Shown piece by piece: positions 1,179-20,016 of a stretch of DNA of 20,016 nucleotides; within the stretch, counting starts at the first letter, position 1, and each line of letters begins with the position of its first letter. This DNA is from a virus, in the IMG/VR virus record IMGVR_UViG_3300009011_000066, positions 1 through 20,016 of that record; one strand, 5' to 3'. Under the pieces are notes generated by a model that saw nothing but the letters and a program-made list of their open reading frames with translations, did not search any database and was not told the origin of the DNA. The position numbers were made by a program, and so were the translations under genes.

Positions 1179-1523
1179 TTAATTTTTGCATGGGAATGCG
1201 CTCACCAAGGCTTTATATGCAAGTTCAGATGCGGGCTTTGTCCGCAATTCAGGGTGGTTATCAAGATATAAGCCAACGATGTCTTCTACTTGGCCGACTG
1301 TTACGCCTGGCTCTGGGCAAATAGTTACATTTTGAAAGGCGTTATAGGTTGCAATGACAAACCCCCTGTACACACCAGCATCGAGGTAATCCACCGTTTC
1401 AGCGTTATTGTTTAAGGCTTTTTTCCTGGCATTGTTCCACTCTGATAGCTGATTTCCATTATAGAAAACAGCGTAAGACGGTAGAGAAACTGCGAGTAAT
1501 AGCGAAGCGATAATTTTTTTCAT
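1179..1523 (-). CDS. Secreted Rap1a/Tai-like immunity protein (moron)
   Basis: This 114-residue protein is the only clear reverse-strand gene. Residues 1-18 form a Sec signal peptide (lysines, hydrophobic core, PSYA before the cut), so the mature protein should be periplasmic. The mature part reads NGNQLSEWNN, then DAGVYRGFVIATYNAFQ, then TICPEPGVTVGQVEDIVGLY, LDNHPELR and a closing LVSAFPCKN. This is the outline of the Rap1a/Tai family, small periplasmic proteins first known as immunity partners of type VI secretion amidase effectors. Cys69 and Cys112 match the conserved second cysteine pair. The usual first pair, near the NGN motif and before the GF/GY motif, is absent. The gene is richer in A+T than its neighbours and sits in a head operon, which fits a moron expressed in the lysogen. 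Its partner, if any, is not visible. Confidence 0.7.
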   Translation of the reverse strand: MKKIIASLLLAVSLPSYAVFYNGNQLSEWNNARKKALNNNAETVDYLDAGVYRGFVIATYNAFQNVTICPEPGVTVGQVEDIVGLYLDNHPELRTKPASELAYKALVSAFPCKN

Positions 1524-4485: not shown

Positions 4486-4773
4486 ATGAAAAAGTTAAAA
4501 GTCGAGAAGGCTGGTTGCTGGGGAACGATTAACGGCGTATTCCAGCAACTGCCGGTTGGTCATGAGTTTGTTGCGGTTGATGTGCCGCCAGCTTTCGCTG
4601 GGCGCGTTTCAGTGGTTGGCGAAGTCGACGAGCAGGAGCTTGAAGTCTCCACGCCAGGCGCCGACGATAAATCTGCAGAGCAGGCAGAGCAGGCAGAGCA
4701 GGCAGAGCAGGCAGAGCAGGCAGAGCAGGCAGAGCAGGCAGACACCTCCGCTAAATCGAAAAAGGCGAAATAA
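4486..4773 (+). CDS. Small capsid-adjacent protein with AEQ repeat linker
   Basis: This 95-residue protein starts at ATG 4486 with a GGGAGAGAG ribosome site. Residues 1-45 (MKKLKVEKAGCWGTINGVF, then LPVGHEFVAVDVPPAFAGRV) look like a small beta-strand domain of a kind seen just after the capsid gene in related phages. I do not know its function. Residues 64-84 are seven perfect AEQ units encoded by identical 9-base repeats, followed by a lysine-rich tail SAKSKKAK. The repeat should form a helical or disordered acidic spacer. The copy number may vary between relatives through slippage, and every change would keep the frame. It lies between a terminator and the connector genes. Confidence 0.7.
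   Translation: MKKLKVEKAGCWGTINGVFQQLPVGHEFVAVDVPPAFAGRVSVVGEVDEQELEVSTPGADDKSAEQAEQAEQAEQAEQAEQAEQADTSAKSKKAK
4675..4737 (+). repeat. Seven perfect tandem copies of a 9-bp unit
   Basis: GCAGAGCAG is repeated seven times without a mismatch, and an eighth copy breaks off after GCAGA. It encodes (AEQ)7. All three forward frames stay open through it (AEQ, QSR, RAG), which explains the spurious overlapping reading frames here. Confidence 0.95.
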
Positions 4774-16960: not shown

Positions 16961-17033
16961 GTTGTTGAATGTGTGCTATCATCGCTCAATCTTTAAATTT
17001 TGTGATGTTAGAAAATGAAGCACATTCAACAAC
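16961..17033. repeat. 13-bp perfect inverted repeat across the acyltransferase start
   Basis: GTTGTTGAATGTG (16961-16973) is the exact reverse complement of CACATTCAACAAC (17021-17033); the arms are 47 bases apart. The right arm encodes residues 3-7 of the acyltransferase (HIQQL), and the ATG at 17015 lies in the loop near its base. In RNA the pairing would close a stem around the ribosome site. Confidence 0.75.
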
Positions 17034-18046
17034 TTGATGGATTAAGGGCGTTTAGTGTATTGGGTGTAATACTTTACCATCTGGGAGTCCCTGGCTTTGG
17101 TATGGGTTGGCTAGGGGTTTCTTTTTTCTTCGTTTTATCCGGGTTTCTTATCACCAGGATACTTATTGAATCAAAGGAAAGTAATAACTTCTTCTCTAAC
17201 TTCTATATAAGAAGAAGTCTTAGAATATTTCCGTTATATTATCTTTATATTTTTATAGTATTCATCTATTGCCTATACTTTGATGTTCAGGGAGTGAATA
17301 ACTGGCTTTATTATGTCTTTTATTTGCAGAATTACACAATGGCATGGAATGGATTTGCGTATGTTCCAGGGCAGGAGTTTGGTCACACGTGGTCTTTGGC
17401 TGTTGAAGAGCAATTTTATTTACTCTGGCCGCTTGTTGTTTTTCTTTGCAACAGGAATCTTATTATTATTTCAGCCATAATGCTTTCATGTGTGGCGATT
17501 GCATCAAGATTTTACCTTGCTGAATACACTTCAATAGTTTCTTTTGCTCCTCTATTCTCAACAATGGATACGCTACTAATTGGAGCTATCATTGCTGTTA
17601 TCTCTGTAAATAAAAGAGCAATGAAAATATTTTCATGCGCATTACTTGCTGTGGGCCTGTTCTGGTTCATATCGGTAGTTAAATTTGGTGTGCTTATATA
17701 TGGTTGGCACAAAGGGATTGAAGCGGCTAATCAAAGTCTTTACCTTTCATCAAGCATTTTATTTGCAGGTGTAATAGGGGTCATCGCTTCTGGGGTAGTG
17801 AAAGCTAAATTCCTTACCATTGCACCATTAATTTATCTTGGGAAGATAAGTTATGGGCTATACCTGTGGCATCCATTTGCAATTCAGGTTGTGGACTCAC
17901 TGCAGTACCGTGGTCATTTATTGTGGATAACTGGGCCAATGGTTTTGGCATCTAAACTGGCCCTTACTATCGCAATTTCTGCACTTTCATTTAAGTTTTT
18001 TGAGCTTCCATTCCTCAGGATGAAAGACAGGTTCACAAAGAAGTGA
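17015..18046 (+). CDS. Membrane O-acyltransferase (acyltransferase 3 family), lysogenic conversion type
   Basis: This 343-residue integral membrane protein belongs to the acyltransferase 3 family (OafA/OAc type), which moves acetyl groups onto sugars of surface polysaccharides. The opening QLDGLRAFSVLGVILYH has Arg11 and His22 in the R-X10-H spacing of the family. Then come SFFFVLSGFLITRIL, FYIRRSLRIFPLYY, HTWSLAVEEQFYLLWP and, near the end, LGKISYGLYLWHPF. About ten hydrophobic segments alternate with short loops. There is no C-terminal SGNH domain, so it is the short type. The DNA is strikingly A+T-rich (12 of 60 bases are G or C at 17221-17280, against 38 of 60 at 6301-6360), and it sits beside the tailspike. 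It probably alters the host O-antigen or capsule in the lysogen. The ribosome site is weak (TTAGAAA). Confidence 0.9.
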   Translation: MKHIQQLDGLRAFSVLGVILYHLGVPGFGMGWLGVSFFFVLSGFLITRILIESKESNNFFSNFYIRRSLRIFPLYYLYIFIVFIYCLYFDVQGVNNWLYYVFYLQNYTMAWNGFAYVPGQEFGHTWSLAVEEQFYLLWPLVVFLCNRNLIIISAIMLSCVAIASRFYLAEYTSIVSFAPLFSTMDTLLIGAIIAVISVNKRAMKIFSCALLAVGLFWFISVVKFGVLIYGWHKGIEAANQSLYLSSSILFAGVIGVIASGVVKAKFLTIAPLIYLGKISYGLYLWHPFAIQVVDSLQYRGHLLWITGPMVLASKLALTIAISALSFKFFELPFLRMKDRFTKK

Positions 18047-18088: not shown

Positions 18089-18132
18089 TTGATCGACGCC
18101 ACCGATCAATAATACTGTATACATATACAGTT
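18089..18132 (+). promoter_or_regulatory. SOS promoter with LexA box (first of two)
   Basis: TACTGTATACATATACAGTT at 18113-18132 contains CTGT-N8-ACAG, the full LexA consensus. A candidate -35 (TTGATC, 18089-18094) stands 18 bases before TACTGT, which would serve as the -10. LexA bound here would block the promoter until DNA damage. The -35 overlaps an inverted repeat TTGATCG (18089-18095) / CGATCAA (18103-18109). Confidence 0.9.
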
Positions 18133-18149
18133 TAGATTGGAGGGGCGTC

Positions 18150-18467
18150 ATGGGATTCCCGAGTCCGTCAGCAAACATGCAAGCCGCTTTTGTTGTAGCA
18201 ACAGAGCAATTTCTTCCGCCATCAGCAAGCATTGTCGAAACGCAGGAAGGCTATGATGTCATTGATAACCGAGCACAATTCAAGCGCGGAGACACTTTGC
18301 TTATCTGGTTTTGCGGCCGCCAGCAGCATGCGTACTGGGCCGGTGACTCGCTCATAACTGATGATGGTGAATCCATCGAGGGTGAGTCATTGGATGACGT
18401 TCGACTTGTCGGTGTTGTAACGCACACTATTCATAGGGTATCAGCAGACAACAACCCCTTCATGTAG
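18150..18467 (+). CDS. UmuD'-like protein without catalytic residues, SOS-controlled
   Basis: This 105-residue protein starts at ATG 18150 behind a strong GGAGGGG site and 18 bases after a LexA box. It begins M-GFPSPSANMQ. In UmuD the damage-induced cut lies between Cys24 and Gly25, giving UmuD' that starts GFPSP, so this protein starts where UmuD' starts. Further on, FLPPSASIVETQEGYDVIDN and FKRGDTLLIWF align by eye with the region around the UmuD nucleophile, but Asp36 stands where Ser60 should be. No lysine fits Lys97. The end LVGVVTHTIHRV parallels the GVVTFIVK end of UmuD. I infer an S24-fold, uncleavable UmuD' relative, perhaps binding UmuD, UmuC or RecA. It is not DinI-like. The alignment is manual and the middle is weak. 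Confidence 0.55.
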   Translation: MGFPSPSANMQAAFVVATEQFLPPSASIVETQEGYDVIDNRAQFKRGDTLLIWFCGRQQHAYWAGDSLITDDGESIEGESLDDVRLVGVVTHTIHRVSADNNPFM

Positions 18468-18588: not shown

Positions 18589-18631
18589 TTGATCAGCGCC
18601 TCAGATGAAACTACTGTATATAAAAACAGTA
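18589..18631 (+). promoter_or_regulatory. SOS promoter with LexA box upstream of umuDC (second of two)
   Basis: TACTGTATATAAAAACAGTA at 18612-18631 contains CTGT-N8-ACAG and, from memory, equals the E. coli umuDC operator. TTGATC (18589-18594) precedes TACTGT by 17 bases, a normal -35 to -10 spacing. The umuD ATG lies 16 bases after the box, behind GAGGTGAG. Confidence 0.93.
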
Positions 18632-18646
18632 TTCGAGGTGAGCATC

Positions 18647-19066
18647 ATGGAGTTCTTCAGACCGGCAGAGTTACGCGAAATTATTGCTATCCCACTGTTC
18701 AGCGATTTGGTGCAATGCGGGTTCCCAAGCCCGGCAGCCGACTACGTGGAGCAGCGTATCGATCTCAATGAGTTGCTTGTGTCCCATCCTAGCTCAACGT
18801 ATTTCGTAAAAGCCGCCGGCGACTCGATGATTGAGGCCGGGATCAGCGACGGCGATCTGCTGGTGGTGGATAGCTCGCGTACCGCTGAGCATGGTGACAT
18901 TGTCATCGCCGCTGTGGAAGGGGAGTTCACTGTTAAGCGCCTGCAGCTGCGCCCGACAGTCCAGCTAATTCCGATGAATAGCGCTTACTCACCGATCATT
19001 GTCGGTAGCGAGGACACGCTCGATGTGTTCGGCGTCGTGACTTTCATCGTTAAATCTGCGAGCTGA
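18647..19066 (+). CDS. umuD: UmuD, autoproteolytic subunit of DNA polymerase V
   Basis: This protein has 139 residues, the same length as E. coli UmuD, and most blocks match it as I remember it. Start 18647 follows GAGGTGAG; an earlier in-frame ATG at 18605 lies before the LexA box and would be outside the transcript. Cleavage site Cys24-Gly25 is followed by [17 protein letters not shown]. The nucleophile is Ser60 ([11 protein letters not shown]), and the general base is Lys97 (GEFTVKR). On DNA damage RecA filaments stimulate self-cleavage, and UmuD' pairs with UmuC to form the mutagenic polymerase V. The gene is followed by umuC after two bases. All catalytic parts are intact, so it should be functional. 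Confidence 0.97.
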
Positions 19067-19068
19067 AC

Positions 19069-20016
19069 ATGTTTGCGCTCTGTGATGTGAATTCGTTCTA
19101 CGCATCATGCGAGACGGTGTTCAGGCCAGATCTGAGAGGGCGCCCGGTTGTTGTTCTCTCGAACAATGATGGCTGCGTAATCGCGCGCAGTGCCGAGGCC
19201 AAGGCCGCTGGAATTACAATGGGAGAGCCTTTCTTCAAGCAAAAGGACTTATTTCGGCGCGCTGGCGTTGTTTGCTTCAGCAGTAATTACGAGCTTTACG
19301 CTGATATGTCGAATCGGGTAATGACGACGCTTGAGGAAATGAGCCCCCGCGTCGCAATTTATAGTATTGATGAAGCTTTTTGCGACCTGACAGGCGTCAG
19401 GAATTGCCGGGACCTGACGGAGTTCGGCAAAGAGATCCGCGCGACAGTTCTGAAGCGTACACATCTGACTGTCGGGGTTGGCATCGCGCAGACTAAAACG
19501 CTCGCTAAGCTGGCAAACCACGCCGCCAAGAAATGGCAGAGGCAGACTGGCGGGGTGGTTGATTTGTCCAATATCGACCGGCAACGTCGGTTGTTGACTA
19601 TCGTGCCTGTAGAGGATGTGTGGGGCGTTGGCAGGCGCATAAGCAAGAAGCTAAACGCCATGGGTATCAAAACGGCTCTGGACCTATCTGAGCAGAGTAC
19701 GTGGATTATTCGAAAGCACTTCAATGTCGTCCTGGAGCGAACGGTTCGGGAGCTGCGCGGCGAACCATGTCTTGATCTGGAGGAGTTTGCGCCGGCAAAG
19801 CAGGAAATCGTCTGTAGTCGTTCGTTCGGCGAACGCGTTACCGAGTACGAACAGATGCGCCAGGCTATCTGCAGTTATGCGGCGCGTGGCGCAGAAAAGC
19901 TTCGCGGCGAGCATCAGTATTGCCGCTTTATTTCTGCATTCGTGAAAACCTCTCCCTTTGCACTTAACGAGCCATACTACGGCAATAGCGCCTCAATGAA
20001 ATTGCTCACGCCAACG
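19069..20016 (+). CDS. umuC: UmuC, catalytic subunit of DNA polymerase V (partial, runs off the end)
   Basis: ATG 19069 begins [20 protein letters not shown] and the frame is open for 316 codons to the end of the window. E. coli UmuC has 422 residues, so about 106 are missing, including the beta-clamp binding end. The Y-family catalytic acids are present: Asp6 in CDVNSFYA, and Asp101 and Glu102 in [27 protein letters not shown] and [13 protein letters not shown] are the conserved finger and helix-hairpin-helix phrases. The enzyme copies damaged DNA past lesions with low fidelity, together with UmuD' and RecA. Transcription should come from the SOS promoter before umuD. The window cannot tell whether this is a phage-carried copy or the chromosomal one at the edge of the prophage. 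Confidence 0.95.

Follow-up and report, generated by a model that had tools for sequence, protein, structure and literature searches.

UmuD has to be cut before polymerase V works, and the delay limits mutation. What role could be played by a phage-encoded protein that starts in a UmuD'-like manner, has lost the active site, and is made from a gene before umuD and umuC under its own LexA box? The window in which this gene lies, meaning the whole stretch of 20,016 nucleotides that was analysed, is a 20-kb virus record carrying head, tail, and spike genes of the temperate-phage type, and its DNA relatives are phages of Klebsiella, Enterobacter, Salmonella, Erwinia, Hafnia, and Escherichia. At positions 18150 to 18467 (+), a real open reading frame encodes a protein of 105 amino acids with the start MGFPSPSANMQAAFVV, which agrees with the MGFPSP beginning given in the original prediction. 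The LexA box announced for the gene is likewise present (18115 to 18130), and the gene starts 20 nucleotides past that box (CTGTATACATATACAG). Near-consensus boxes of this kind are expected 0.05 times by chance, and a LexA box lies 28 to 46 nucleotides 5' of nearly all close relatives' genes. The prediction had also placed the gene before intact umuD and umuC. Its order is right and the window's UmuD is normal, with the GDSM motif (Ser60) and the Lys97 region kept, but umuC is cut by the end of the contig. The same three-gene array (UmuD'-like gene, umuD, umuC) occurs in E. coli strains D9, D4, and XJ55. The features of the region are the following.

18115..18130 (+), LexA (SOS) box of the UmuD'-like gene, CTGTATACATATACAG, strong
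18139..18145 (+), probable ribosome-binding site GGAGGGG, from the window sequence
18150..18467 (+), UmuD'-like protein without active site, 105 amino acids, phrog_3469, from profile searches
18150..18167 (+), codons 1 to 6, MGFPSP, a UmuD'-like start and short graft, not conserved in the close family
18168..18200 (+), codons 7 to 17, homologous to the beginning of orf80 (phrog_3893) by sequence comparison
18222..18446 (+), codons 25 to 99, conserved UmuD'/LexA-type body without the Ser60 segment, from alignment, model, and omega
18447..18464 (+), codons 100 to 105, C-terminal tail DNNPFM, family pattern D-[DE]-x-P-[VFI]-[MI]
18614..18629 (+), LexA box of umuD, CTGTATATAAAAACAG
18647..19066 (+), umuD, 139 amino acids, Ser60 and Lys97 present, matching Peptidase_S24 and UmuD models
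19069..20016 (+), umuC, 5' 316 codons, cut by the contig end, from profile searches

Elsewhere in the window, an O-acetyltransferase of the acyltransferase family (17015 to 18046) separates the tail spike from the SOS genes, and several related phages have acyltransferases of other sequence at the same place. A Rap1a immunity-family protein (1179 to 1523, minus strand; Pfam E 1.5e-15) sits inside the head-gene block on the opposite strand and is a possible moron gene. A small head-region reading frame has a run of AEQ repeats (AEQAEQAEQ...) near its end, at 4486 to 4773.

Judging from profile comparisons, the window protein is related to UmuD and HumD from end to end and beyond chance, which bears out the S24/UmuD-like relation seen earlier by eye. 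It matches the PHROG family phrog_3469, annotated "UmuD-like protein," with an E-value of 2.6e-38 (residues 1 to 104 against 1 to 105 of 106). A family profile of 25 sequences, searched against the PDB, found UmuD at 4e-6 and UmuD' at 9e-6, within a range of 4e-6 to 5e-5. Profile-profile comparison with UmuD and HumD-class proteins gave an E-value of 1.1e-17 over residues 1 to 105, with both ends in register and a probability of 98.9. The family profile was needed because a PDB search with the single sequence returned chance antibody matches only. No Pfam family matched the window protein up to an E-value of 1, Peptidase_S24 included, nor did any NCBIfam model, and PADLOC returned no match. 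Two bridge members of the family have weak, sub-threshold Pfam matches to Peptidase_S24.

The structural check proposed with the original prediction pointed the same way. AlphaFold2 gave a beta-rich body at moderate confidence (pLDDT 76.5, pTM 0.59), with residues 1 to 20 poorly modelled. In Foldseek, nearly all of the model's top PDB matches were C-terminal domains of LexA, UmuD', and CI with probability 1.00, at modest E-values of 0.009 to 0.2 and none below 0.001. The predicted fold is thus LexA/UmuD-like. The family itself is large, has no name of its own, and resides in prophages of Enterobacteriaceae; its members include mEp390, phiES15, Flotzy, and CobraSix. In samples centred on the genome of the Enterobacter cloacae locus L098, matches occurred in 51 of 392 genomes of one bacterial family and 45 of 60 genomes of one genus, mostly as open frames.

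The claim that the catalytic site is missing held, although the manner of its loss was misjudged. Asp36 had been taken to replace the serine nucleophile. In alignments made through the bridge members, about 11 residues around Ser60 are absent from the window protein, and 35 of the 39 other family members compared have Ala at that position, so that Asp36 is specific to the window clade and the substitution is ruled out. The Pantoea coffeiphila bridge member has its first 28 residues mostly as in UmuD' and then lacks the 11 residues that hold GDSM. This implies that in the whole family the serine was deleted along with its segment. The Lys97 column is adjoined by position 62, which is Lys or Arg in most other members; the window clade has Tyr there and no Lys97 equivalent. 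By the bridge alignments and Tyr62, the window protein lacks the Ser60-Lys97 catalytic pair.

At the other end, the HumD class and phrog_3469 share a C-terminal tail, acidic and then x-P-[VFI]-[MI], that is absent from UmuD. Examples are EFDDCPVI in HumD, EWDDLPVI in pAEv1818 (L107:1498-1887), and DNNPFM in the window protein, and P103 and D100 rank among the most conserved residues of the family. We take this tail to resemble the acidic tip of SSB. Where the gene is coupled to umuC, its final codons may have a second role at the umuC start. The sequences make plausible a series running from UmuD through the HumD class and phrog_3469 to the window clade.

The N-terminus has a different history from the body. 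The likeness of the window protein to the UmuD' start stops after six residues. Nearly all of the more distant relatives have the true pre-cut UmuD' start, MGFPSPA-DYVE, and those that have it have no adjoining umuC; the family as a whole is thus pre-cut and UmuD'-like. Close relatives, however, mostly begin not with MGFPSP but with MPRTADIHAAF (MPRTADIHAAFVA). This is also the start of orf80 (phrog_3893), an 80-amino-acid gene found directly 5' of an armed UmuD'-like gene in many enterobacterial prophages. The first 42 nucleotides of the MPRTADIHAAFVA-type start are 79 to 95% identical to orf80 DNA and abruptly 19 to 31% identical beyond; 5' of the start, promoter and ribosome-binding sequences are often near-identical to those of orf80 as well. 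This pattern indicates that an ancestral deletion joined the start of orf80 to a UmuD' body. In the window subgroup, the first codons were later swapped for MGFPSP, probably, as we infer, at a GCAGCAGAC microhomology. The motif drifts within that subgroup (PSR, PSS, QSS), and omega is about 0.58 for the N-terminal region past MGFPSP, which is weak constraint beside 0.13 for the body. The FPSP start, put forward as the key feature of the protein, thus proved to be a drifting six-codon graft that most close homologues lack, an outcome that the original prediction had named as grounds for refutation; the homologue starts, the graft origin, and omega together rule it out as a selected feature of the window clade.

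orf80 itself encodes a small SOS-controlled protein, present before armed UmuD'-like proteins in about 20 related loci (e.g., L098:5762-5998 and L052:3762-3998). AlphaFold modelled it with confidence (pLDDT 90.8) as winged-helix-like, with weak PDB matches.

Loss of both active site and arm, together with the relaxed N-terminal region, could mean that a former UmuD' gene is decaying here and persists through its linkage to umuC. We consider this very improbable. The body (codons 27 to 105, 37 distinct sequences) has an omega of 0.13, a strong constraint that is about equal in loci with and without umuD and that largely refutes decay. The matches in the sampled genomes are numerous and mostly open, and both the SOS box and the start/stop coupling to umuC have been retained.

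That coupling is seen in 31 related loci in which the gene lies directly 5' of umuC and umuD is missing. The stop of the gene and the start of umuC overlap by 1 nucleotide as TGATG in nearly all of them, and the gene thus occupies the place of umuD. An intact umuD separates the gene from umuC in 22 other loci and in the window, and it usually has a LexA box of its own; close relatives that retain intact umuD in this way, the window among them, make up about half. Where the contig is complete, umuC of the relatives encodes 421 to 422 amino acids and is full length in both settings, except in locus L041, where the frame stops early. The C-terminal tail of UmuC, which in the published polymerase V model is where UmuD' binds, is conserved in almost all complete copies. 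Among more distant members, direct pairing with umuC occurs in Enterobacter (CobraSix, E. cloacae DSM 26481) and Franconibacter. Relatives do not always lie before umuDC, a point raised for checking by the original prediction: many follow orf80 or stand alone near an integrase, as HK639 HumD does, with no umuC nearby. In Phytobacter and Kosakonia (L087 and L090), armless members lie 3' of umuC, not 5'.

Two further readings did not survive closer comparison. The UmuD protein is 95 to 100% identical among close relatives, yet the umuD DNA is diverged by about 10%, so a recent insertion of a umuD cassette was rejected. Residue 5 of UmuC is Val beside the protein alone and Cys beside umuD, but Cronobacter phage ENT39118 combines a normal umuD with Val5. 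In this set, we saw no specific co-adaptation between UmuC beside the protein alone and UmuC beside umuD.

The place of the gene suggests that its product might be a full UmuD' stand-in, a homodimer that alone activates the phage UmuC without cleavage, as HumD does for the host UmuC. The position before umuC in the 31 loci, the HumD precedent, and the whole UmuD' arm retained by more distant members all favor this. In a published model of polymerase V, one protomer of UmuD' holds the UmuC C-terminus, while the other places its N-terminal arm at the UmuC active site (PMC11791011). Armless UmuD' dimerises but gives no support to mutagenesis (PMC11791011), and an activating role for the window protein is therefore not certain. 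We compared arm and umuC linkage across 122 distinct family proteins. The UmuD' arm, which E. coli polymerase V needs (PMC11791011), is missing from all 45 that have umuC in cis, whereas about 67 of the 75 without umuC have it (64 by pattern and three by eye), and several of the remainder are fragments or lie just 3' of umuDC. On the tree, this takes about two changes for umuC linkage and four for the arm, so the contrast is clean and rests on few events. For the same reason we rejected a statistically independent association between losing the arm and being linked to umuC, tiny as the Fisher P value is. Given the missing arm, and the intact umuD that about half of the close relatives keep, a full stand-in seems to us unlikely.

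The gene is maintained beside intact umuD at about the same omega as elsewhere, and this would also suit a brake, in which the protein sits on UmuC, UmuD', or the RecA filament and thereby lowers polymerase V activity or slows the cleavage of LexA, UmuD, and the phage repressor. An armless protein of the same fold with no active site could act as a natural dominant negative. There is a precedent in Hex of phage 434, which the title of PMC3564112 describes as a small phage protein preventing RecA-mediated repressor cleavage. Translational coupling to umuC without umuD is nevertheless an odd layout for a pure inhibitor, and SOS-induced timing is late for the protection of a repressor. We regard a brake, too, as improbable.

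The reading we prefer, and hold with about even confidence, is that the gene product is a cleavage-free accessory subunit of the HumD type for the phage-borne polymerase V, which has lost the arm and probably works in mixed dimers with UmuD'. A role with UmuD and UmuC is plausible from the sequences and is strengthened by the relatives that lie directly 5' of umuC without umuD. When DNA damage inactivates LexA, the UmuD'-like gene would be transcribed, and because its product needs no RecA-stimulated cleavage, that product would be available at once. The armless protein would then probably pair with a UmuD' protomer, encoded either by the adjacent umuD or by that of the host, and this mixed dimer would tune the amount of active polymerase V formed. 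A mixed dimer is preferred because the window protein lacks the arm. UmuD and UmuD' are known to exchange subunits and to favor heterodimers (PMC5342242), and UmuD/D' heterodimers expose UmuD' to ClpXP (PMC4552617). For the window protein, we infer dimerisation, UmuC binding, the mixed pairing with UmuD', and the sign of the effect.

A more specific form of this proposal, which we think decidedly unlikely, is that some phages run an asymmetric polymerase V. It would contain an obligate mixed dimer, with an armless, uncleavable protomer on the UmuC tail and a UmuD' protomer contributing a single active-site arm. The armless protomer might perhaps reach replication proteins through its SSB-like acidic C-terminal tip. 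If this were true, one cleavage event per complex would be enough. More generally, a natural UmuD' body without cleavage machinery or arm, selected beside umuC, offers a ready way to test which portions of UmuD' are required and whether the two UmuD' protomers serve different functions. It is also an illustration of how a prophage may rewire the SOS mutagenesis of its host.

Among known systems, impCAB likewise has a small SOS gene before a umuDC-type pair. ImpC is DinI-like, whereas searches of Pfam, NCBIfam, and PHROGs gave no DinI match for the window protein, so the analogy covers layout only. With UmuD and UmuD' of E. coli polymerase V, the window protein shares the body fold, the N- and C-terminal landmarks, and, in the umuD-less relatives, the position before umuC. 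It differs in having no cleavage site, Ser60 segment, or Lys97, a different N-terminus, and an extra C-terminal tail. Members of phrog_3469 share its length, deletions, and tail; most of the distant ones, unlike the window protein, have the whole UmuD' arm, Lys or Arg at position 62, and Ala at position 36, lack umuC in cis, and are often preceded by orf80.

The HumD class (phrog_811, NCBIfam NF051876) includes the proteins of P1, phiKO2, HK639, Hafnia yong1, and Aeromonas pAEv1818. They have a pre-cut start, a Ser60 motif that is degenerate in most (already so in P1 HumD, phiKO2, and HK639), and the tail shared with the window family. A LexA site is annotated for P1 and phiKO2, and the members examined have no adjoining umuC. 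The original prediction placed HumD closer to UmuD. The reverse is true, because P1 HumD is itself pre-cut, a natural, already activated short UmuD (PMC7092418), and the P1 database record states that HumD complements UmuD'. HumD keeps the full UmuD' length and the arm, whereas the window protein is shorter by about 11 residues at Ser60 and by about 6 at a later point, has no arm beyond MGFPSP, and sits with umuC. The HumD-type start with its conserved arm is absent from it, since only MGFPSP is present and residues 7 to 17 derive from orf80. The HumD model NF051876 does not match the window protein, while 33 of 74 relatives match (best E 6.5e-11). Our best reading, by analogy, is that the window protein would work most like HumD, yet it is no HumD by curated model or arm. 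A literature search, which covered few subscription journals, found no paper on the window protein. Because HumD itself is pre-cut, a phage-encoded pre-cut UmuD' was already known; what is new here is the deletion of the active-site segment, the replacement of the arm, and the umuC operons without umuD.
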